DNA of 64,000 nt from NCBI GenBank assembly GCA_903953565.1, contig CAJBKE010000059.1, forward strand, positions 79,923 through 143,922. Direction: 5' to 3'. This document shows, piece after piece, positions 1-64,000 of this stretch. Position 1 is the stretch's first letter. Every line of letters starts with the position of its first letter. The notes under the pieces are model-generated. The model was given only the letters and a program-made list of their open reading frames with translations. It was not told the origin of the DNA and did not search any database. Source of the DNA: an uncultured Verrucomicrobiota bacterium. Lineage in GTDB: Bacteria; Verrucomicrobiota; Verrucomicrobiia; Chthoniobacterales; JACTMZ01. Made by a program: the position numbers and the translations under genes.

Positions 1-2884
1 AGGCGATCAGATTGCCATCTTCGCTGACGCTGCCGAAATCGCTTGCAGCGTTCCCGCCTTGAACAAACTCGCCCGTCTGCGTGCTAACCACGCTGGCCGC
101 CTCAAGGGTCGGTGATGCCGTTTCGAGAATACTGATCTTGTTTGCCGAATTGCTGACGAACACGTTGTTTGACGAGGCATCCTCATCCGAGTTGCTCATA
201 GCCACCTTCACGGCGACAAAGAAGCCGTCGCGATTGGAGTAGTTGCGGGGGATCAAGGTGTCCAACTCCGCCGAGACCGCTTCACCGATGTCGAGGAAGC
301 CGTCGTCCGGTTGCGGGGTATAGTCGCGGACTGTGCCGGTCACGTCAGTCAAGCCGTATGGGGGAACCTCACCCGGTGTGCCCGTGACAGCTACGCTGCG
401 CAGAACGGTGGCTCCGTCCGGGATGACAGGAACATCGCCGCTCCAGCGCAGGCGGCTGAGCAAGAAGTCATTGTTGCCGGTATCGCCGAACTCCGAATTC
501 ATGCTCAATCGCAAATCCGAGTAATAACCATCGCTCTCGTCGTCCACGCTGGTCCGCGAGGATTTCAAAGGTCTCGACTGCCGATCGCCCTCGCCTCGCG
601 GATCATTGACCCACTTGACCACAAACGGGAGGATGTCCCCACCGCGGTAACTGCCCGCGCGATAAGTTGCGGCGGGACTCTGCACGGCCAAGTCGGGCAG
701 GACGTCGATGTTTATTTGTCCTGAGGACAAACCGATGGCCAGATTAGAACTGAGGTCAGGCTCTGTGGTTGGTAAGTTTCCGGGGGTGTAGAACCGAACA
801 AACATCCTGTAACCGCTGGTTATGTTGTGGAGGGTGCCGTCGTTGGGGATAAAATAGGTTCCGGGCCCGACGCGGGCTGTGGTTTTTGGGACAGCGATAC
901 CGCCGCCGCCACTCAGAGTCACAGAAGGCGCGGAAGTATAGCCAGACCCGCCGTCCGTCACGGCCACCGCAGTGACCTGTCCACCGGCAATGGCAGCCGT
1001 GCCGGCGGCGCCCGTGCCCCCGCCTCCCCCGAATACCACCAACGGTGGCTCGCCGTAGTTGGATCCGCCGTTGGTCACCGCCACCGAGGCAACACTGAAA
1101 CCGATCGTTGCCGTTGCGGTTGCCCCAGTTCCTCCTCCGCCTCCGCTGAAGACAACGGTCGGCGCGCTGGTGTAACCGGAACCGCGATCCGTGATGGTGA
1201 TACCCGCAACCTGCAGCCCAATTGATGACGTGGCCGTAGCTCCAGTGCCACCGCCTCCCGAAACATTGACTGTCGGCGCTGAAGTGTAGCCGGAACCGGG
1301 AGCGGTCACTGCGATTGATTGGATACCGAACCCGCGAGAGGAAGTGAACACCGCGCCCGAGCCACCGCCGCCGCTCAATGTCACCGCAGGATTAGAAGTA
1401 TAGCCCGATCCTTGGGCCGTCACGGTTAACTCCGCGACGGCATACCCAAGAGTTGAGGTGCCAGCAGCACCAGTCCCGCCGCCGCCCGTAAACTGCGGAG
1501 TTGGCGGTGAGGAATAGCCAGAGCCGGAATTGGTAGTATTTACGCTGGCCACGCTGAACGCGCGGACAGCGGTGAAGTCAGCACCGCTACCTCCGCCGCC
1601 GCTAAGCGTAACTGAGGGAGTGGTAGAGTAGCCCGTTCCAGGCGTAGTGAGGCTAACGGCTGCGACGGCGTAGCCCAAAGTCGCAGTGGCGGTTGCCCCC
1701 GAGCCGCCTCCCCCGGTAATTGAAATGATGGGCGCAGAGGTGTACCCGGAACCTGGGTTGGTGACGCTGACTGCCACAATTTTATCGCCGCTTCTGAGAG
1801 CAGTAGCAATCGCCCCAGTTCCACCGCCGCCGATGATATTAACTATGGGGTCGCTAGAATATCCTGAACCTTGTGCGGTAACTGCTACAGAGGCCAAGGT
1901 ACCAACACTTGCCAACACCGCGTTAGCGGAGGCACCAGTGCCGCCACCTCCACTAATGGTAACGGCAGGCGCGGACGTGTAGCCACTGCCCCCCGACACA
2001 CGGTTGAAGTCCTTAACCACACCTACATCGCTAAGAACCGCCGTTGCCACAGCACCTGATCCGGAGCCACCGCCTACAAAAGAAACCGCCGGCGCGTTCG
2101 TGTAGCCGGTGCCACCAGTGGTGAGCGAAACATTCTTAACGCCTCCCAGATCCGCCAGAACAGCGGTCGCAATCGCACCTGTGCCCCCACCGCCACTGAC
2201 CGCAACGTTTGGTGCGCTCGTGTAGCCGGTGCCACCAGACACCTTGTTGAATCCTTTGACCACGCCGTTGTTGTCCAGCGTAGCGGTAGAGGTTGCACCG
2301 CTGCCGCCACCGCCGGCAAAATTGATCGTCGGCGGAGTCGTGTAGCCAGTGCCAGCCGCGGTTACCGCCACTGATGACAGGCCACCAGTGCCACCAAGCG
2401 TAACCGTGGCCGCAGCACCGGAGCCGCCGCCACCCACGAAAGCTACATCGGGCGGGGTGGTATAGCCACCGCCACGATTGTCCAGCGTCAAGCTCTTCAG
2501 TCCCCCCGTGCTGCTCAAATTCGCCACCGCGGTGGCCCCGCCCGCTGGCCGGAAAGTTTCGCCTCTCACCGTGACGGCACCGGCAGCCACGGGCAAGAAG
2601 GTCGGATTCTCGTAGATATCGTTGCCCTGTAGATAAACAAGGTAGGGATACGTCGTGTCAACCGCCTCCGTAGTCCCGCCCACGGTTACGTCGTAGCCAA
2701 CTGAACCGGTAAGAATCTGCACGGTGGTAAGCCCCGGACCGGGCAACGTCGGATCCCCGATGACCTCAATGGCACGAACGGGTTGGACCCCGAAAAGCGC
2801 CGCGATCGCGGAGGTCATTAACCAACCGGTGAATCGCGAAAAGCGCGCAGACAGGACAAGGGTCTTGGGAAGCTGGTGTTTCAT
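1..2884 (-). CDS. Large secreted glycine-rich tandem-repeat protein, 3' end beyond window
   Basis: The frame stays open from the ATG at 2884 to the window edge (about 961 codons), so the C-terminus is missing. The N-terminus (basic stretch, then a hydrophobic segment ending QPVRA) looks like a signal peptide. After about 110 residues come 14 tandem units of 37-40 residues built on GYTSAP followed by SGGGGTGA. A non-repetitive part follows, with segments such as PDLAVQSPAATY and DGYYSDLRLSMNSEF, suggesting beta-sandwich or CARDB-like adhesion domains. I checked the GYTS codon frame at eight repeats and all agree. The start lies one base after the stop of the upstream metalloprotease gene (TGA-T-ATG), so the two are probably co-translated. 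Function is unknown; a cell-surface or exported adhesin-like role is inferred from composition. Confidence 0.85.
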   Translation of the reverse strand, partial: MKHQLPKTLVLSARFSRFTGWLMTSAIAALFGVQPVRAIEVIGDPTLPGPGLTTVQILTGSVGYDVTVGGTTEAVDTTYPYLVYLQGNDIYENPTFLPVAAGAVTVRGETFRPAGGATAVANLSSTGGLKSLTLDNRGGGYTTPPDVAFVGGGGSGAAATVTLGGTGGLSSVAVTAAGTGYTTPPTINFAGGGGSGATSTATLDNNGVVKGFNKVSGGTGYTSAPNVAVSGGGGTGAIATAVLADLGGVKNVSLTTGGTGYTNAPAVSFVGGGSGSGAVATAVLSDVGVVKDFNRVSGGSGYTSAPAVTISGGGGTGASANAVLASVGTLASVAVTAQGSGYSSDPIVNIIGGGGTGAIATALRSGDKIVAVSVTNPGSGYTSAPIISITGGGGSGATATATLGYAVAAVSLTTPGTGYSTTPSVTLSGGGGSGADFTAVRAFSVASVNTTNSGSGYSSPPTPQFTGGGGTGAAGTSTLGYAVAELTVTAQGSGYTSNPAVTLSGGGGSGAVFTSSRGFGIQSIAVTAPGSGYTSAPTVNVSGGGGTGATATSSIGLQVAGITITDRGSGYTSAPTVVFSGGGGGTGATATATIGFSVASVAVTNGGSNYGEPPLVVFGGGGGTGAAGTAAIAGGQVTAVAVTDGGSGYTSAPSVTLSGGGGIAVPKTTARVGPGTYFIPNDGTLHNITSGYRMFVRFYTPGNLPTTEPDLSSNLAIGLSSGQINIDVLPDLAVQSPAATYRAGSYRGGDILPFVVKWVNDPRGEGDRQSRPLKSSRTSVDDESDGYYSDLRLSMNSEFGDTGNNDFLLSRLRWSGDVPVIPDGATVLRSVAVTGTPGEVPPYGLTDVTGTVRDYTPQPDDGFLDIGEAVSAELDTLIPRNYSNRDGFFVAVKVAMSNSDEDASSNNVFVSNSANKISILETASPTLEAASVVSTQTGEFVQGGNAASDFGSVSEDGNLIA
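842..2560 (-). repeat. 14 tandem coding repeats, about 111-123 bp period
   Basis: The GYTS/GYS-coding words recur near 935, 1052, 1175, 1288, 1400, 1516, 1630, 1744, 1862, 1980, 2102, 2222, 2342 and 2462. Each unit encodes a GYT-SAP turn, a short strand, a SGGGGTGA loop and a second strand. Units differ at many positions, so the array is old or under selection. The spacing is always a multiple of three, which keeps the frame. It lies wholly inside the secreted repeat protein. Confidence 0.85.
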
Positions 2885-55357: not shown

Positions 55358-55799
55358 GTTCATTGCCTTATCCGCAGCATTGGCCGCGGGCCTCACGCTT
55401 CATGCCCAAGAGGCCCCGGCGCCGGTCGATATTCCCGTCGATATCGGTCAGAGCGTGAAAGACATCCGCGTGCCGCACCACAATGCGCAGGGCAAACTGA
55501 GTCTGCGACTCAACGCCGCTGAAGCAGAACGGTCCAGCAACACCGCATTCACCTTCACCGATCTGCAAATCGAAATTTTCGGCGAGCAAACGGAAACCCC
55601 CAGCCTGACGGTCGTGCTGCCCGAGGCGGTTTTCGATCAGACCACGCGTCGCCTGTCCAGCGACCGTCGTTCCGTGATCAAAGGCGACACGATCGAGATC
55701 ACCGGACGCGACCTCGAGTTCGACATCGATTCGCGCACCAGCCGGTTGAGCGGTCCGGTCACCATGATCGTGACCGCGGCGGACACCACCCAGCCGTGA
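55347..55799 (+). CDS. LptC-like periplasmic LPS-export protein
   Basis: 150 residues from ATG 55347 (signal MRCKFIALSAALAAGLTLHA). The beta-jellyroll-like sequence includes FTFTDLQIEIFGEQTETPSL and FDQTTRRLSSDRRSVIKG. Position directly before lptA and lptB supports the LptC role, but LptC diverges strongly and the assignment rests partly on context. It overlaps kdsA and is followed by a GTGA overlap with lptA. Confidence 0.65.
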   Translation: MRCKFIALSAALAAGLTLHAQEAPAPVDIPVDIGQSVKDIRVPHHNAQGKLSLRLNAAEAERSSNTAFTFTDLQIEIFGEQTETPSLTVVLPEAVFDQTTRRLSSDRRSVIKGDTIEITGRDLEFDIDSRTSRLSGPVTMIVTAADTTQP

Positions 55800-56335
55800 A
55801 GACTGCAACTCTTCTCATTTTTCTCTGCGGCGCCGCCGGCGTTCTCGGCCAGACCGGCGGCGATCCACTCGGACTCGGACCGCTGGCCGACTCTCGGCCC
55901 GTCGGAGCCAAGACGGAAATCACCGCGCAAAAAGAAGCGACCTTTGACGAGAAGCGGAACATCGCCGTTTTCGTCGGCAGTGTCCGGGTCAATGACCCTA
56001 GCTTTCTCATGGCGGCAGACCGACTGACCGTCACGCTCTCCGCCGACCGTTCCGGTATCGAGCGCGCCGTGGCGGAAGGCAATGTGGTCATCGTCCAGCG
56101 CACCTCGAAAGACGAAGAGGGCAAAGGCGCGGTCGGCCGAGCCCAGCGCGCCGAATACATTCCCTCGACCGGCAAGGCCACGCTCAGCGGCAGCCCGCAA
56201 ATCCAGCAGGGCATCAACCGGCACATTGCCACCTCGCCGGGCACACGCATGATCTTGCACCGCGACGGCCGGGCCAGCACCGTAGGTCCCAGCCGCACCG
56301 TCATCACCGACTCCTCCGCCCCGCAAATGCCATGA
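55796..56335 (+). CDS. lptA: LptA/OstA-type LPS transport periplasmic protein
   Basis: 179 residues starting at GTG 55796 (GTGA overlap). The signal peptide is KTATLLIFLCGAAGVLGQ. OstA/LptA repeats appear as ITAQKEATFDEKRNIAVFVG, VRVNDPSFLMAADRLTVTL and AQRAEYIPSTGKATLSGSP. It bridges LPS through the periplasm. It ends in an ATGA overlap with lptB. Confidence 0.85.
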   Translation: MKTATLLIFLCGAAGVLGQTGGDPLGLGPLADSRPVGAKTEITAQKEATFDEKRNIAVFVGSVRVNDPSFLMAADRLTVTLSADRSGIERAVAEGNVVIVQRTSKDEEGKGAVGRAQRAEYIPSTGKATLSGSPQIQQGINRHIATSPGTRMILHRDGRASTVGPSRTVITDSSAPQMP

Positions 56336-57105
56336 CCGCCACATCCGAACAACCTGCCGCACGCGGCGCGGAGACCGCCGGGACGACACTCCTGCAGACG
56401 GACAAGCTGGTCAAAGTCTATGGCGGTCGCGCCGTGGTCAACGGGGTCGATATCAATGTCCGCCGCGGGGAAGTCGTCGGCCTCCTCGGACCCAACGGCG
56501 CCGGAAAGACAACGAGCTTCTACATGATCGTCGGTCTGGTCCGCCCGAATTCCGGCCGCGTCCTTTTCGATGGCAAAGACGTCACCGGCATGCCGATGTT
56601 CAAACGCGCGCGCTCCGGCATGGGATACCTGCCGCAGGAGGAATCCGTTTTCCGCAAGCTCACGGTCGAGCAGAACATCATGGCCATCCTCGAGACGACC
56701 AAACTCGGCAAGTCCGAGCGCAAAGCGCGTTGCGAGGAGTTGCTCCACCAGTTCGGCATCGAGCACATCGCGAAAAACACCGCCCTCACCCTCAGCGGCG
56801 GCGAAAAACGGCGCCTGACCATCGCCCGATCCCTGGTCACCAACCCGTCGCTTCTCATGCTCGACGAACCGTTCAGCGGCGTTGATCCCATCGCCGTCTT
56901 CGACGTGCAACAGATCATCTCCAACTTGCGCGATGCCGGCCTCGCCATCCTCATCACGGACCACAATGTCCGCGAGACGCTCGCCATCGTCGACCGCGCC
57001 TACCTCATCTTCGAGGGACGCGTCGAGAGCGAGGGACCGAAAGATTTCCTTCTCAACGACCCCGTCAGCCGCAAGCTTTACCTTGGCGAAAGCTTCACCA
57101 TGTAA
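56332..57105 (+). CDS. lptB: LPS export ABC transporter ATP-binding protein LptB
   Basis: 257 residues. Walker A GPNGAGKTTSFYMIVGL, signature LSGGEKRRLTIARSL and Walker B LLMLDEPFSGVDP are present, with FRKLTVEQNIMAIL typical of LptB. The N-terminal 25 residues are a small extension. It powers LPS extraction from the inner membrane with LptF/G, not in this window. The start overlaps lptA's stop. Confidence 0.94.
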   Translation: MTATSEQPAARGAETAGTTLLQTDKLVKVYGGRAVVNGVDINVRRGEVVGLLGPNGAGKTTSFYMIVGLVRPNSGRVLFDGKDVTGMPMFKRARSGMGYLPQEESVFRKLTVEQNIMAILETTKLGKSERKARCEELLHQFGIEHIAKNTALTLSGGEKRRLTIARSLVTNPSLLMLDEPFSGVDPIAVFDVQQIISNLRDAGLAILITDHNVRETLAIVDRAYLIFEGRVESEGPKDFLLNDPVSRKLYLGESFTM

Positions 57106-57107
57106 CT

Positions 57108-58055
57108 ATGCCCTCTCCCGGAATCGAACCCCCCAGCGTCGGACGCTTTTTCACCGCCCACGCCGACGAACTTGGCCTGGAACTCGTTGCCGGGAAAAAA
57201 GGCCTTGAGCGGGTCATCCGCGAACCCACGGTCAACCGCCCCGGTCTCGCGCTCTCCGGATTTTACAAATACTTCGCCCCGAAACGGGTCCAGGTCTTCG
57301 GCAGCGCCGAGCTGAGCTATCTGCAGAATCTCCCCGCCGCCGAGCGCAGGGAACGCCTGCGCCGCTTTTTCGACTGCACCATCCCCTGCCTCGTCGTGGC
57401 CCGACGGGCCAAGCTTCCGGCCGGAGTCGCCGAGATGGCCAACGAGGCCGGTGTCCCGCTTTTCCGCACGCCGATGATCACCATGAAGTTCATCAATGCG
57501 GCCACCATCGCCCTCGAGTTCGAGTTCGCCCCGCGACGCAGCGAGCACGGCAGCATGGTCGATATCCTCGGCGTCGGCACCCTCATCCGCGGCGCCAGCG
57601 GCATCGGAAAAAGCGAATGCGTGCTCAGCCTTCTCGAGCGGGGTTACAGCCTGGTCAGCGACGATATCACCCGCTTCCGTGCCTTCGAGGGACGCGAAGT
57701 GGTCGGCACCTCGGCCGACCTGACCCGTTTTCATATGGAGGTCCGCGGTATCGGCATCATCAATGTGGCGTCAATCTTCGGCGTCCGCAGCATCCGCACC
57801 GAGAAGACCCTCGACCTGGTCGTTACTCTGAAGGACTGGCAGGAAATGGAGGATATCGACCGCCACGGCCTCCAGCGGCAGTCTTACAAGATCCTTGGCA
57901 TCTCCGTGCCCCATGTTATTATTCCAGTTCGAATGGGCCGCGACCTCGGACGTCTGGTGGAAGTTGCTGCGTTGGACCAAAAACTGAAGTCCCACGGGAT
58001 CGACAGCGCGCACGATTTCAACGAGCGGCTCATCGCGACCATGAAGCCCAACTGA
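57108..58055 (+). CDS. hprK: HPr kinase/phosphorylase
   Basis: 315 residues, two bases after lptB. An HprK N-terminal domain leads to the P-loop RGASGIGKSECVLSLL. The HprK signature region is SDDITRFRAFEGREVVG then MEVRGIGIINVASIFG, with ISVPHVIIPVRMGRDLGRLV later. It phosphorylates or dephosphorylates a serine in HPr, encoded next. A regulatory rather than sugar-uptake PTS is suggested by its neighbours. Confidence 0.94.
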   Translation: MPSPGIEPPSVGRFFTAHADELGLELVAGKKGLERVIREPTVNRPGLALSGFYKYFAPKRVQVFGSAELSYLQNLPAAERRERLRRFFDCTIPCLVVARRAKLPAGVAEMANEAGVPLFRTPMITMKFINAATIALEFEFAPRRSEHGSMVDILGVGTLIRGASGIGKSECVLSLLERGYSLVSDDITRFRAFEGREVVGTSADLTRFHMEVRGIGIINVASIFGVRSIRTEKTLDLVVTLKDWQEMEDIDRHGLQRQSYKILGISVPHVIIPVRMGRDLGRLVEVAALDQKLKSHGIDSAHDFNERLIATMKPN

Positions 58056-58062
58056 ACCCGCC

Positions 58063-58368
58063 ATGGGGATCCTCGCCAAAAAAACCGCCGACAACGAAAG
58101 CCGCCTCACCCGCGAGCTCGTCATCATGAACCGCTACGGACTGCACGCACGTCCGGCCGCCATGTTCGTCAAGACATCCAACCGCTTCAAATCCGAGGTC
58201 TGGGTCGAAAAAGACGGTGAAGAAGTCAACGGCAAGTCGATCATGGGGCTCATGATGCTCGCCGCCGGTCACGGCTCGAAGCTCACCGTCTCCGCCTCGG
58301 GCAGCGACGCCGAAAAGTTCCTCGAAGAAATCGCGCAACTCGTCGCGAACAGGTTCAACGAGGACTAA
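58063..58368 (+). CDS. ptsH: Phosphocarrier protein HPr
   Basis: 101 residues, slightly longer than usual because of a 12-residue N-terminal extension (MGILAKKTADNE). The active His is in RYGLHARPAAMFVK. The HprK target serine is in NGKSIMGLMMLAAGHGS. It carries phosphate between EI and downstream acceptors. It is seven bases after hprK. Confidence 0.95.
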   Translation: MGILAKKTADNESRLTRELVIMNRYGLHARPAAMFVKTSNRFKSEVWVEKDGEEVNGKSIMGLMMLAAGHGSKLTVSASGSDAEKFLEEIAQLVANRFNED

Positions 58369-58466
58369 CCGGGCGCCGCTCCCGCCCCGGCCGGGCTGGG
58401 AATCGAGCGGTTTTTGTTTCTCTGATCTTCCCCCCACCCCTCGCCATGCTGTAAACAGCGCCCGCG

Positions 58467-60233
58467 ATGGGAGAACCTTTGGATCAAGAGTCAATCAGTC
58501 AGGGACTGGGCGTATCACCCGGCATTGCCGAGGCGGAGGTCGTCGTCCACTGGCAAAACGAAGAGGAAATACCCCTTCGCGACATCAAGGAAGCGGACAT
58601 CCCCGGCGAGATCGAACGCTTCGAGGCCGCCCTCATCGCCACGCGTCAGGAGCTTCTCGATATCCAGCAGAAAATCGCCGGGGCGATCGGTGCGGACGAT
58701 GCAAGTATCTTCGACGCGCACCTCCTGGTGGTCGAGGACCGCACGCTGATCGACGAGACCCTGCGCGGACTGGAGCGCGAGCTGCACAACATCGAATTCG
58801 TTTTCCACCAGGTCGCGGAAAAATACTGCCGCACGCTCGGTGCGATCGACGACCCCTACCTGCAGGAACGCGTCGTCGACGTCGAGGATGTGACCAAGCG
58901 CGTCCTCCGGCACCTGCTCGGAAAATCGCGCGAGGAATTCCACCGCCTGGACCGTCCTCACATCATCGTGGCGCGCAATCTCACGCCGTCGGACACCGCC
59001 CTCATCAACCGCGCGCTGGTCCGCGGCTTCGTCACCGAGCAAGGCAGCCGCACTTCTCACAGCGCGATCATGGCGCGCTCCCTCGGCATCCCGGCCATCG
59101 TCGCCCTGCCGGGCATTTGCGCCAAGCTCACCACCGGCGATCAAGTGCTCCTCGACGGATACAGCGGCAAACTCATCCTCAATCCCTCGGAGTCGACCCG
59201 CTTGCAATACGGACAAATCGAGCGCCAGAAGGTCGAGGTCGCCCACCAGCTCGACTCAATCCGCGACACCCGTTCCACCACACGCGACGGCAAACACATC
59301 GTCCTCTCGGCCAATATCGAGCTGCCCTCGGAACTCGACGCCGTCGCCGCCTCCGGGGCGGAGGGCATCGGTCTTTTTCGCACCGAATTTCTCTTCCTCA
59401 ACAAGACCGAGCCGCCCTCCGAGGACGAACAATACGAGGCTTACAAACTCGTGGCCGAACGCTGCTCCCCGCATGGCGTGATCGTCCGCACCCTCGACAT
59501 CGGCGGCGACAAGCTCAGCCACCTTTCCGGCCATGACGGCGAGGACAATCCGTTTCTCGGCTGCCGGGCCATCCGCCTCTGCCTGGCCCAACCTGAGCTC
59601 TTCAAAACGCAACTCCGCGCCATCCTGCGCGCCGCACACCACGGGCAAGTCCGGCTGATGTATCCGATGATCGGACAAATCGACGAACTCCGCCGCGCCA
59701 ACGCGCACCTCGAGGAATGCAAAAAGGAACTCGCCGACCGCGGTGTCCCCTACTGCCACGACATCGAAGTCGGCACCATGATCGAACTGCCTGCCGCCGC
59801 GCTCATCGCGGACCAACTGGCCAAGGAAACCAAATTCTTCAGCGTCGGCACCAATGATCTCGTGCAATACACCATGGCGGTGGATCGCGGCAACGAACGC
59901 ATCGCCCACCTCTACCAGCCAACCCATCCAGCTGTCCTCCGGCTCCTTGCCATGGCGGCAAGTGCCGCACACCAACATGGTATATGGATCGGCGTATGCG
60001 GCGAGATGGCTTCGGAAATCCATCTCACACCGCTCCTTCTCGGACTCGGCATGGACGAACTCAGCGTCGTCACCCGCGCCGTTCCCCGTGTCAAAAAAGC
60101 GTTGCAAAGCCTCGACGCCAAAGAATGCGGCGGGGTGGCCAGCGAGTGCTCTGCCATGACCGACCCTGCTGCCATCGAGCAAAAATGCCGCGACTATGCG
60201 CGGCAACATTATCCCGAATTGTTCGATGTGTGA
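58467..60233 (+). CDS. ptsI: Phosphoenolpyruvate-protein phosphotransferase (enzyme I)
   Basis: 588 residues. The phospho-His loop is GSRTSHSAIMARSLGIP. The TIM-barrel part shows GIGLFRTEFLF, RTLDIGGDKLSH, GCRAIRLCL, PMIGQIDELRRA, GTMIELPAAALIAD and FFSVGTNDLVQYTMAVDRGN. It phosphorylates HPr from PEP. No EII permease is in the window. Its stop overlaps the rsmA start (GTGA). Confidence 0.95.
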   Translation: MGEPLDQESISQGLGVSPGIAEAEVVVHWQNEEEIPLRDIKEADIPGEIERFEAALIATRQELLDIQQKIAGAIGADDASIFDAHLLVVEDRTLIDETLRGLERELHNIEFVFHQVAEKYCRTLGAIDDPYLQERVVDVEDVTKRVLRHLLGKSREEFHRLDRPHIIVARNLTPSDTALINRALVRGFVTEQGSRTSHSAIMARSLGIPAIVALPGICAKLTTGDQVLLDGYSGKLILNPSESTRLQYGQIERQKVEVAHQLDSIRDTRSTTRDGKHIVLSANIELPSELDAVAASGAEGIGLFRTEFLFLNKTEPPSEDEQYEAYKLVAERCSPHGVIVRTLDIGGDKLSHLSGHDGEDNPFLGCRAIRLCLAQPELFKTQLRAILRAAHHGQVRLMYPMIGQIDELRRANAHLEECKKELADRGVPYCHDIEVGTMIELPAAALIADQLAKETKFFSVGTNDLVQYTMAVDRGNERIAHLYQPTHPAVLRLLAMAASAAHQHGIWIGVCGEMASEIHLTPLLLGLGMDELSVVTRAVPRVKKALQSLDAKECGGVASECSAMTDPAAIEQKCRDYARQHYPELFDV

Positions 60234-61621
60234 CGGGCCATAATTCCTCCGACCGGCACGCATATCATCCCGTTCTTCCGCCCTTGCGCCTCACCGACAT
60301 CCGTTCCGCGCTCGACGAGCTGCAACTGCGCCCGACGAAAAGCCTCGGACAGAATTTCCTCCACGACCAGAACCTTGCCCGGACCATCGCCGCGGCGGCG
60401 GTTCCCGGGCACGCGGCCTTTGCCGTGGAGATCGGGCCGGGACTCGGCTCGCTGACCGCACCCCTGCTCGAGCGCTGCGACCGGCTGCTTCTGATCGAAA
60501 AAGACGCACGCCTCGCCGAATGGCTGCGCGGCAAACTCCCCGCCGACCGCGTTGAAGTGGTGCATGCCGACGCCATCGAATTCGACTGGCGTCCGCTCAT
60601 GGCACAAGGACCCTTTCCTTTGGCCGGCAACCTGCCTTATTACGCGACCTCTCCGATTCTGCGCAACTGGCTCGGACCCTGCTCTCCGGTCACCCGCGCC
60701 GTGTTTGCCGTCCAGGACGAGTTCGCCGCGCGACTCGCCGCGGGACCGGACCACGCCGATTACAGCGCATTGACCGTGCGCACCCAAAGACTCTGGACAG
60801 TCCGCCGCGAACGCTCCCTGCCGCCTTCCGTCTTCTTTCCCGAGCCCGGGGTCGACTCGGCCTTGGTTGTCCTCGAGCGGCGCGATGCTCGGGAATTTCC
60901 GCCGGTCCGTGCCACATTTTTCGACGACCTCGTCCAACGCGGATTCAGCCAGCGGCGCAAACAACTGCGCGCCCTGCTCAAGGCTCCCCTTGGCCTCTGG
61001 CAGGAATGGTCGGCCAAGCACGGCCTGTCGCCCACCTGCCGCGCGGAGAATCTTTCCTTAGCGCAATGGATCGACCTCGCACGCACGCTCGACCCGTCTG
61101 CTGCCACGCCCGCGCAACATGATGGCGAGACATTCGATGTTGTGGACGAATCCGACCGTGTCGTGGCCACGCGACCGCGCCGGGAGGTTCACGACGGGAA
61201 TCTTTTGCACCGTGCCGTGCACATTCTCGTCTTCAACCACTCGGGAGAACTTCTCCTGCAGAAACGCAGCGCATGGAAAGACCGCGAGCCGTGCAAATGG
61301 GACTCAAGCGCGGCCGGACACCTCGAACCGGGCGAAGATTACGACGCCGGCGCGGCTCGTGAGACCGAAGAGGAACTCGGCATCCGCCCTCAACTCACCC
61401 CGATCGGCAAAATCCGCGCCTGCTCGAATACCGGGCAGGAATTTGTCGAGGTCTACACCGCCATCCACGACGGACCTTTTGTTCTTCCCCCGTCCGAAAT
61501 CGAAAGCGCGGGCTTTTTTCCGGTCGAGACCGTGCGTGCCTGGGTTGCCAACCGCCCCGGCGACTTCGCCCCGGGATTCTGGGAGGTTTGGAAGCTGTAC
61601 CAGGCAGCCAACGAGCATTGA
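60230..61621 (+). CDS. rsmA: RsmA (KsgA) 16S rRNA dimethyltransferase fused to Nudix hydrolase
   Basis: 463 residues if started at GTG 60230, in a GTGA overlap with ptsI; a TTG near 60283 is an alternative. Residues about 18-280 are KsgA: PTKSLGQNFLHDQNLA, VEIGPGLGSLTAPLLE, LAGNLPYYATSPIL and FSQRRKQLRALL. Residues about 300-463 are an IDI/YfcD-like Nudix domain with HRAVHILVFNHSGELLLQKR. The Nudix box is canonical, from GHLEPGED to ARETEEELGI. The frame is continuous with no stop or frameshift between domains. The first part dimethylates A1518/A1519 of 16S rRNA; the Nudix substrate is unknown. Confidence 0.88.
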   Translation: MTGHNSSDRHAYHPVLPPLRLTDIRSALDELQLRPTKSLGQNFLHDQNLARTIAAAAVPGHAAFAVEIGPGLGSLTAPLLERCDRLLLIEKDARLAEWLRGKLPADRVEVVHADAIEFDWRPLMAQGPFPLAGNLPYYATSPILRNWLGPCSPVTRAVFAVQDEFAARLAAGPDHADYSALTVRTQRLWTVRRERSLPPSVFFPEPGVDSALVVLERRDAREFPPVRATFFDDLVQRGFSQRRKQLRALLKAPLGLWQEWSAKHGLSPTCRAENLSLAQWIDLARTLDPSAATPAQHDGETFDVVDESDRVVATRPRREVHDGNLLHRAVHILVFNHSGELLLQKRSAWKDREPCKWDSSAAGHLEPGEDYDAGAARETEEELGIRPQLTPIGKIRACSNTGQEFVEVYTAIHDGPFVLPPSEIESAGFFPVETVRAWVANRPGDFAPGFWEVWKLYQAANEH

Positions 61622-61657: not shown

Positions 61658-61748
61658 GGTGAGGTGGCTGAGTGGTCGAAAGCAGAGCTTTGCTAAAGCT
61701 CCGTAGTCCAAAAGGCTACCGAGGGTTCGAATCCCTCCCTCACCGCCA
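61658..61748 (+). tRNA. tRNA-Ser (anticodon GCU)
   Basis: 91 nt including an encoded CCA end. Acceptor GGTGAGG pairs with CCTCACC; the D-arm starts TGGCTGAGTGG. The anticodon stem GAGCT/AGCTC encloses loop TTGCTAA (anticodon GCT). A long variable arm (GTAGTCCAAAAGGCTAC) and the T-arm GGGTTCGAATCCC are complete. A weak TTGACG word lies at 61618-61623. Confidence 0.97.
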
Positions 61749-62621: not shown

Positions 62622-64000
62622 TCACAGGGACCGGATGAACTTGATCACGGCCGCGCGGTCTGCAGCGGGCATGTTTCGGAAGTTTTCCTTGGCCTGCTCG
62701 GCTTCGCCTCCGTGCCAGAGAATAGCCTCCTCCAGCGTCCGCGCGCGTCCGTCGTGCAAATACCCCTCCCCGCCGCTGACTCCGGCCGATAGGCCGATAT
62801 TCCACAACGGTGCGGTGCGCCATTCGGAACGCGAGGCGCCTTCGCCATTCATGTTGTCCGCCAAACCGGGGCCCATGTCATGCAGGAGCAGATCGGTGTA
62901 AGGGCGGATCGTCTGGTTCCTCAATTCGCCCAGCGGATGATAGTTGCCCGTGGTCATCTCCGGGGTGTGGCAAGCGACACACGACGCGGTGGCAAAGAGC
63001 CGCTGGCCGCGGAGGACTTCGGCATCCTGCAGGTCGCGTCTGGCGCCGACCCCGAGCAACTTGACGTAGCGATTCATCAGATCAAGTTCCTCGTCGCCGA
63101 TTTCCGCCGGCCGCGGAGATGTCTCGCCGTCGAGGACCGGAAAGATGCTGCTCGTCACGCCCATGTCGCGGTTGAAGGCGTGGGCAATCTGGTTCAACAC
63201 CGAGGCTTGGCTTGCTTTATGCCCAAAGCGGCCGAGGCGGAGGATGGCGGGATTAACCGGATCCGGAACCATATTGGCACGGCCGGAAATGCCGTCGCCG
63301 TCGGCATCATCGGGGTCGGCGAGGGCGAGGATCGTGCTTTCCGGAACGGCCTCGAGAAGACCCAAACCGATGAGCGGCAGCGCCGTGCGCAGGGAATAGA
63401 ATGCGGGCGTGACGCCGCTGAATTCCAACTCCGGCTTGCGCAGGGTGTAAGGCGTGCCATCGCCGTAGGTGCCCGTGATTTCGGTATATCCTTGCAGACT
63501 GACCTCCGCCTCGGGCGTTCTTTCGGTGGAGTGAGGTTGCAGTTGCTCGCCGAGCAACGGATGCGGCGCACCGTCCTCCCATGCCGCGACCTTGACGACA
63601 GCCCGGTCAATGGTTTCGCCGACCGCCGGCAGCAAAGATCTTCCATTGTTCGCATGGCAGGCGACACAGCTCTGTGCGACGAATCCGGGCCCGACCTTGC
63701 CGATGTGCTCGGCGAAAACCGGATTCCCCGCTTCGGTGTGCGCGCCGGTGCGGAAATCGGTATGATGGAGGCGGCGTCCGAGCAGGAACGGCTGCCCGCT
63801 CTCGGGCGTGATGTTCCCGGCCATTTGCTTGTAGCGGTTCTCCGGTTCGTTCGAATACTGGTAGGGCAGCGTGGTCAGTCCGCCGAGCCACGCTTCCTCC
63901 GGCAGCGGAAAGGAATCGAACGACGTGACCCCGACCACTTTGTTGGTTTCCGCCTCCCAGTCCTTCGCATACCAAGGGACGACGCCCTGGCCGACCACGT
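62622..64000 (-). CDS. Di-haem cytochrome c/peroxidase-like protein (DUF1111 type), 5' end beyond window
   Basis: At least 459 codons, open to the right edge. It lacks its signal peptide in view. Two CXXCH haem sites are visible: SCVACHANNG and SCVACHTPEM. The segment between them (SGRANMVPDP, RLGRFGHKASQASVLNQIAHAFNRDMG) and the end (GGEGYLHDGRARTLEEAILWHGGEA) match the di-haem oxidoreductase/thiol-oxidoreductase-like family. It is a periplasmic electron carrier or peroxidase; the partner is unknown. Confidence 0.85.
   Translation of the reverse strand, partial: VVGQGVVPWYAKDWEAETNKVVGVTSFDSFPLPEEAWLGGLTTLPYQYSNEPENRYKQMAGNITPESGQPFLLGRRLHHTDFRTGAHTEAGNPVFAEHIGKVGPGFVAQSCVACHANNGRSLLPAVGETIDRAVVKVAAWEDGAPHPLLGEQLQPHSTERTPEAEVSLQGYTEITGTYGDGTPYTLRKPELEFSGVTPAFYSLRTALPLIGLGLLEAVPESTILALADPDDADGDGISGRANMVPDPVNPAILRLGRFGHKASQASVLNQIAHAFNRDMGVTSSIFPVLDGETSPRPAEIGDEELDLMNRYVKLLGVGARRDLQDAEVLRGQRLFATASCVACHTPEMTTGNYHPLGELRNQTIRPYTDLLLHDMGPGLADNMNGEGASRSEWRTAPLWNIGLSAGVSGGEGYLHDGRARTLEEAILWHGGEAEQAKENFRNMPAADRAAVIKFIRSL

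Follow-up and report, generated by a model that had tools for sequence, protein, structure and literature searches.

A KsgA/RsmA-Nudix fusion protein in a branch of the Verrucomicrobiota

The window, a 64,000-nucleotide stretch of a contig from an uncultured Verrucomicrobiota bacterium, carries on its + strand a single open frame that runs from 60230 to a TGA at 61619-61621 without an internal stop. An earlier note on this DNA had read a complete KsgA/RsmA domain and a complete Nudix domain with an intact box in this one frame, and both stand, with Pfam and TIGR00755 scores above their cut-offs. Features are collected in Table 1. Residue numbers are those of P0001, the translation of the frame from 60230, in which the TTG at 60284 is residue 19.

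Table 1. Features of the fused gene and its surroundings (window positions, P0001 residues), and the adjacent gene pair in genome G322 (positions on L127).
Feature	Position	Residues	Strand	Basis or remark
ptsI (PTS enzyme I), next gene upstream	58467..60233		+	Pfam
rsmA-nudix fused gene, most likely CDS	60284..61621		+	TTG start, 445 aa; L009-L015 start codons at same position; AF2 disorder upstream
Alternative upstream start of the fused gene	GTG 60230, in frame		+	overlaps ptsI stop
RsmA/KsgA domain	60329..61087	34-286	+	TIGR00755 213.1 bits, PF00398, KsgA 6ift fold match Z 30.3
NLPY catalytic motif of rRNA N6-adenine dimethyltransferases	60629..60640	134-137	+	conserved in fused homologues
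Inter-domain linker	61088..61126	287-299	+	homologue alignment; pLDDT dip in block 291-300
Nudix domain with N-terminal hairpin of YfcD/DR_0079/IDI branch	61127..61612	300-461	+	PF00293 69.8 bits; 2fkb YfcD Z 24.6
Nudix box GX5EX7REXXEEXGI	61316..61384	363-385	+	catalytic residues conserved, fused and unfused
Adjacent separate rsmA and Nudix genes, G322	L127:5090-6498; rsmA TAA end L127:5914, Nudix ATG L127:5968		same strand

The true start of the gene is most likely TTG 60284 rather than 60230, because the seven closest homologues (L009-L015) have an ATG, TTG or GTG start codon at that position, homologue alignments of the fused protein begin only at about residue 19, and residues 1-12 of the longer frame are unstructured in the AF2 model. 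The earlier start that the note had given is thus probably wrong.

The ptsI gene lies upstream of the fused gene in the closest relatives only (L009-L015). In the window it ends a tight one-strand run, lptA-lptB-hprK-HPr-ptsI (55796-60233), of LPS-export genes and a regulatory PTS (HPr kinase, HPr and enzyme I), and this run is kept in L012-L015. Directly downstream of the fused gene is a tRNA-Ser (GCT) at 61658-61748, the sole tRNA in the window, and an ORF with CxxCH haem motifs at 62622-63998 on the - strand, by eye a putative di-haem oxidoreductase, extends to the window end. At L017, L018, L020 and about thirty-five other Chthoniobacterales loci we saw by eye a GTPase-like protein of ~400 aa with a membrane-like C-terminal part just upstream, and a DnaB-like helicase farther upstream of it. 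No operon partner conserved across the fused clade was found, and with no neighbour common to the whole clade we dropped such a partner as a clue to function.

RsmA is near-universal and among the most conserved of the RNA-modifying enzymes, and to our knowledge it is generally taken to stand alone. The first half of the fused protein matches the TIGR00755 equivalog at 213.1 bits against a cut-off of 171, covering profile positions 2-255 of 256, and Pfam RrnaAD (PF00398) matches residues 37-286 at 168.6 bits, far above its cut-off. Across 112 fused proteins the SAM motif GxGxG (G69, G71, G73) is invariant, as are N134, P136 and Y137 of the NLPY motif (112/112 each; L135 in 110). The fused protein thus resembles RsmA/KsgA in its complete domain, equivalog score, all motifs and fold, and differs from it by the additional C-terminal Nudix enzyme; the solved or annotated RsmA proteins we saw were stand-alone. 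The gene is also the only full RsmA match in its genome, the next matches being partial (45 and 29 bits). From these sequence features the RsmA half looks active. A PADLOC match to mad2 was rejected, since it is confined to the methyltransferase half and scores far below the match to KsgA.

For the second half, Pfam NUDIX (PF00293) matches residues 326-442 at 69.8 bits, far above cut-off. The Nudix box is intact (G363-x5-E369-x7-R377-E378-T-E-E381-E382-L-G384-I), with a Thr after the RE where the consensus GX5EX7REUXEEXGU has a bulky hydrophobic residue. We compared 132 Nudix sequences, 112 fused and twenty unfused. R377, E378, E381 and E382 are invariant in both sets (112/112 and 20/20), and among the fused proteins E369 is kept in 95 and G384 in 110. 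Four more residues, H321, H327, H364 and E404, are invariant in all 132 and correspond in the alignment to the metal ligands H25, H32, H69 and E116 of type I IPP isomerase (IDI); the fifth IDI ligand, Glu114, has no counterpart. At the position of IDI Cys67 the fused proteins have Ala (107) or Ser (5 of 112), and the unfused ones Ser (14) or Ala (6 of 20). For the IDI residues, roles and numbering follow what is generally known of the E. coli enzyme, with positions placed through the alignment.

Scores against curated models are lower. The domain reaches 57.9 bits with TIGR02150 (type I IDI; cut-off 105.8) and 76.6 bits with the YfcD equivalog NF011922 (cut-off 152), by which it is not a YfcD equivalog. 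It misses all NCBIfam Nudix equivalog cut-offs, and therefore no curated model gives its substrate. True type I IDI was absent from fifteen of fifteen genomes searched; the single sub-cut-off IDI match in each was the fused gene or the stand-alone form.

AF2 modelling of the whole protein, built with fifty-five window and locus sequences, gave pLDDT 92.9 and pTM 0.89. The RsmA part of the model matches KsgA (6ift, Z 30.3), and residues 298-461 match YfcD (2fkb, Z 24.6). Modelled alone, the Nudix domain has pLDDT 97.3 and matches 2fkb at Z 24.1 (rmsd 1.6 over 157 residues); DR0079 (22.3) and E. coli IDI (21.6) follow, with a drop to 17.3 after them. None of the fold matches listed is a solved chain spanning both halves. 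Between the domains, the span from W280 to E300 is mostly 17-24 residues long in homologues and up to 38.

By profile and fold the solved structures nearest to the Nudix half are YfcD of E. coli (PDB 2fkb) and DR_0079 of D. radiodurans (PDB 2o5f), which share its N-terminal hairpin. Both, however, are stand-alone and lack equivalents of His321, His364 and Glu404, and YfcD has no substrate assigned (PMC5389931). Type I IDI (TIGR02150) lies in the same clan branch, and four of its metal ligands are kept; the window domain differs from it in the Ala/Ser at Cys67, in a REXXEE box where E. coli IDI has RRXXYE, and in its sub-cut-off score. Sequence and models place the Nudix half in the YfcD/DR_0079/IPP-isomerase branch. 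Because the hydrolase box is intact and the isomerase cysteine is missing, we predict a hydrolase and not an isomerase, and the domain looks active. It represents an unassigned Nudix subfamily with an unusual site, in which a hydrolase box is combined with the metal ligands of the isomerase and the isomerase cysteine is absent.

Is the join itself real? A search of genome contigs found eighty fused loci, including one in the cultured Chthoniobacter flavus Ellin428 (L059). That an assembly or frameshift artefact joined two genes is next to impossible and was rejected: unfused homologues do exist in other orders, one pair of them adjacent, but the same full-length architecture recurs in well over 150 genomes, among them the Ellin428 genome and single-contig genomes. 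The sequencing frameshift that the earlier note had raised is likewise excluded, and the RsmA-Nudix join is confirmed. The other doubt raised there, homologues encoded as two separate genes, has a mixed answer: such homologues occur in other orders, yet the fusion is universal within its own clade, so they do not refute it.

In a sample of 387 genomes from the phylum, a full-length fused match was present in fifty-five, one each. These were all fifty-five sampled genomes of nine families, namely seven from the window's own order (f1-f7) and two others of the same class (f9 and f12); none of the remaining 332 genomes of the sample carried the full-length fusion. Family f9 is read as Akkermansiaceae-like because a UDP-glucose 4-epimerase gene adjoins the fused gene in this group, an arrangement shared with the Akkermansia clone in PMC3861447. 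By inference, f12 is Verrucomicrobiaceae-like.

Within the window's own order we searched 117 genomes, of which 107 gave a one-piece match over both halves. One more (G428) is fused with a long linker (a 475-aa frame), and in G412, G471 and G411 contig ends truncate the fused-gene matches. None of the 117 had an RsmA lacking the Nudix half. Six MAGs (G417, G418, G429, G445, G479 and G430; 91-96% complete) had no RsmA above cut-off. This may reflect either assembly loss or true loss. Two of the six, G417 and G418, represent different genera of a single family (f88), so that this lineage may really have lost RsmA.

The fusion is retained in two single-contig genomes of 0.9 Mb that have only two Nudix genes each, and no fused copy turned up in a plasmid search. 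Purifying selection acts on both halves, with dN/dS of 0.08-0.24 among close relatives.

In other families of the class, RsmA is encoded separately from a stand-alone Nudix protein of ~180 aa that is ~41-54% identical to the fused Nudix domain. The two genes were not adjacent in the twenty unfused genomes placed for both, except in G322, the sole genome of its order in our sample, where rsmA is followed on the same strand by the Nudix gene after a 53-bp gap. The stop, the gap and the separate start argue that this pair is not a simple frameshift, and it likely represents the pre-fusion state. At two unfused Nudix loci, those of G169 and G351, long frames (514 and 479 aa) were considered as other fusions and rejected, since each proved to be high-GC open sequence preceding a regular ~180-aa Nudix gene.

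The fused sequences fall on one side of a branch in both the Nudix tree (SH-aLRT 96) and the RsmA tree (93). In the rpoB tree, G322 lies outside the fused genomes and groups with f10 and f13 (94/96), and a single fused clade is weakly supported (65/78). Fused and adjacent genomes as one clade are not rejected yet not favoured (AU p = 0.078). The fusion probably arose once, with the order of steps inferred, and the simplest history is that two neighbouring genes fused a single time. It probably happened before Chthoniobacterales split from the Akkermansia/Prosthecobacter-like order, perhaps between genes that already lay side by side, and has been kept since. The related order in which the genes are adjacent offers a view of the fusion before and after the event.

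The architecture is already on record, since a table in PMC3861447 (2013) has a row for an Akkermansia-type ORF 34 of 450 aa annotated as 'Dimethyladenosine transferase; ksgA, NUDIX hydrolase'. Going by that row, ORF 34 shares architecture, length and clade with the window protein and belongs to the same family; in the portion of the paper that holds the table, the architecture appears only as this annotation. We found no study of a KsgA/RsmA-Nudix fusion in the open-licence literature. RsmA-Nudix is thus a variant of RsmA that is on record and apparently unstudied, and not a new kind of system.

A partial parallel comes from Arabidopsis. AtNudx3 cleaves IPP and DMAPP according to PMC6779861, is grouped with IDI in PMC2707057, and is the topic, as a dual enzyme, of a paper cited in PMC5389931. 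By these descriptions, AtNudx3 (dipeptidyl peptidase III-Nudix) likewise joins a Nudix domain of the IDI group to an unrelated enzyme; its partner is a peptidase and its host a plant, as against RsmA in a bacterium.

The explanation we favour, tentatively, is a bifunctional housekeeping protein whose halves are fused mainly for co-expression; we infer both activities, the substrate class and the reason for the fusion. The RsmA/KsgA domain would dimethylate A1518/A1519 of 16S rRNA, and the C-terminal Nudix domain, joined by a short linker, would hydrolyse a small, possibly prenyl, diphosphate. Because of the IDI-type metal site and the AtNudx3 precedent, our leading guess for the substrate is short prenyl diphosphates, with IPP/DMAPP converted to monophosphates as by the plant enzyme. 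Against this reading, the nearest sequence relatives, YfcD and DR_0079, are not known prenyl diphosphatases; the missed NCBIfam cut-offs, the lack of a Glu114 counterpart and the weak rpoB support for one fused clade also count against it. Fixed co-expression would be the simplest reason for the fusion.

A DR_0079-like nucleotide substrate is nearly as likely as a prenyl diphosphate. The fuller version of this explanation, which we hold possible but less likely than the one above, makes the Nudix half a pyrophosphohydrolase of nucleotides (e.g. CDP/CTP or damaged nucleotides) in a housekeeping pair with RsmA, with a possible tie to a DNA-repair side activity reported for E. coli KsgA. DR_0079 ranks second among the relatives by both profile (2e-24) and fold (Z 22.3), and PMC5389931 gives it a preference for cytosine (d)NDP/NTP. 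For KsgA, a role as DNA glycosylase and in DNA binding has been reported (PMC10091538). The E. coli rsmA gene adjoins that of a nucleotide hydrolase, apaH. However, the metal site differs, since YfcD and DR_0079 have no equivalents of His321, His364 and Glu404, which are invariant in this family, and ApaH was absent above cut-off in twenty-four of twenty-four genomes, fused and unfused, so that the fusion does not follow ApaH loss. Replacement of ApaH was rejected for the same lack of contrast between fused and unfused genomes.

Functional coupling of the halves appears improbable. Here the Nudix domain would sense or destroy a small diphosphate signal and so gate RsmA or 30S release, or would act on an RNA end while the 30S subunit matures. 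The high pLDDT and pTM of the whole model fit a fixed relative orientation of the domains, RsmA never occurs without the Nudix half in the fused clade, and no other neighbour is conserved across it. On the other hand, the linker varies in length, and the stand-alone Nudix proteins of related orders have the same invariant residues, so the chemistry is independent of the fusion. With no conserved operon context, a variable linker and these shared residues, none of our findings indicates that one activity influences the other. Non-enzymatic Nudix domains exist (PMC5389931), but a non-catalytic RNA- or 30S-binding appendage that has lost hydrolysis is very unlikely when dN/dS is low and 112/112 fused proteins keep the four catalytic residues of the box and the additional metal ligands unchanged.

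The earlier note had suggested that the fused pyrophosphohydrolase could link ribosome assembly to nucleotide or isoprenoid turnover. The isoprenoid option gains support from the IDI-branch fold and metal ligands, and the substrates (p)ppGpp and m7GTP that it had also named gain none specifically. For the link to ribosome assembly no finding gave support, and under the co-expression reading the fusion may do no more than secure joint production of the two enzymes.

In an entire bacterial branch, to which the gut symbiont Akkermansia apparently belongs, RsmA occurs only as this fusion. It is unlikely that one protein couples a near-universal late step of 30S maturation to prenyl diphosphate hydrolysis; if it did, a whole lineage would tie its ribosome output to its supply of isoprenoids, used for the cell-envelope carrier and quinones.
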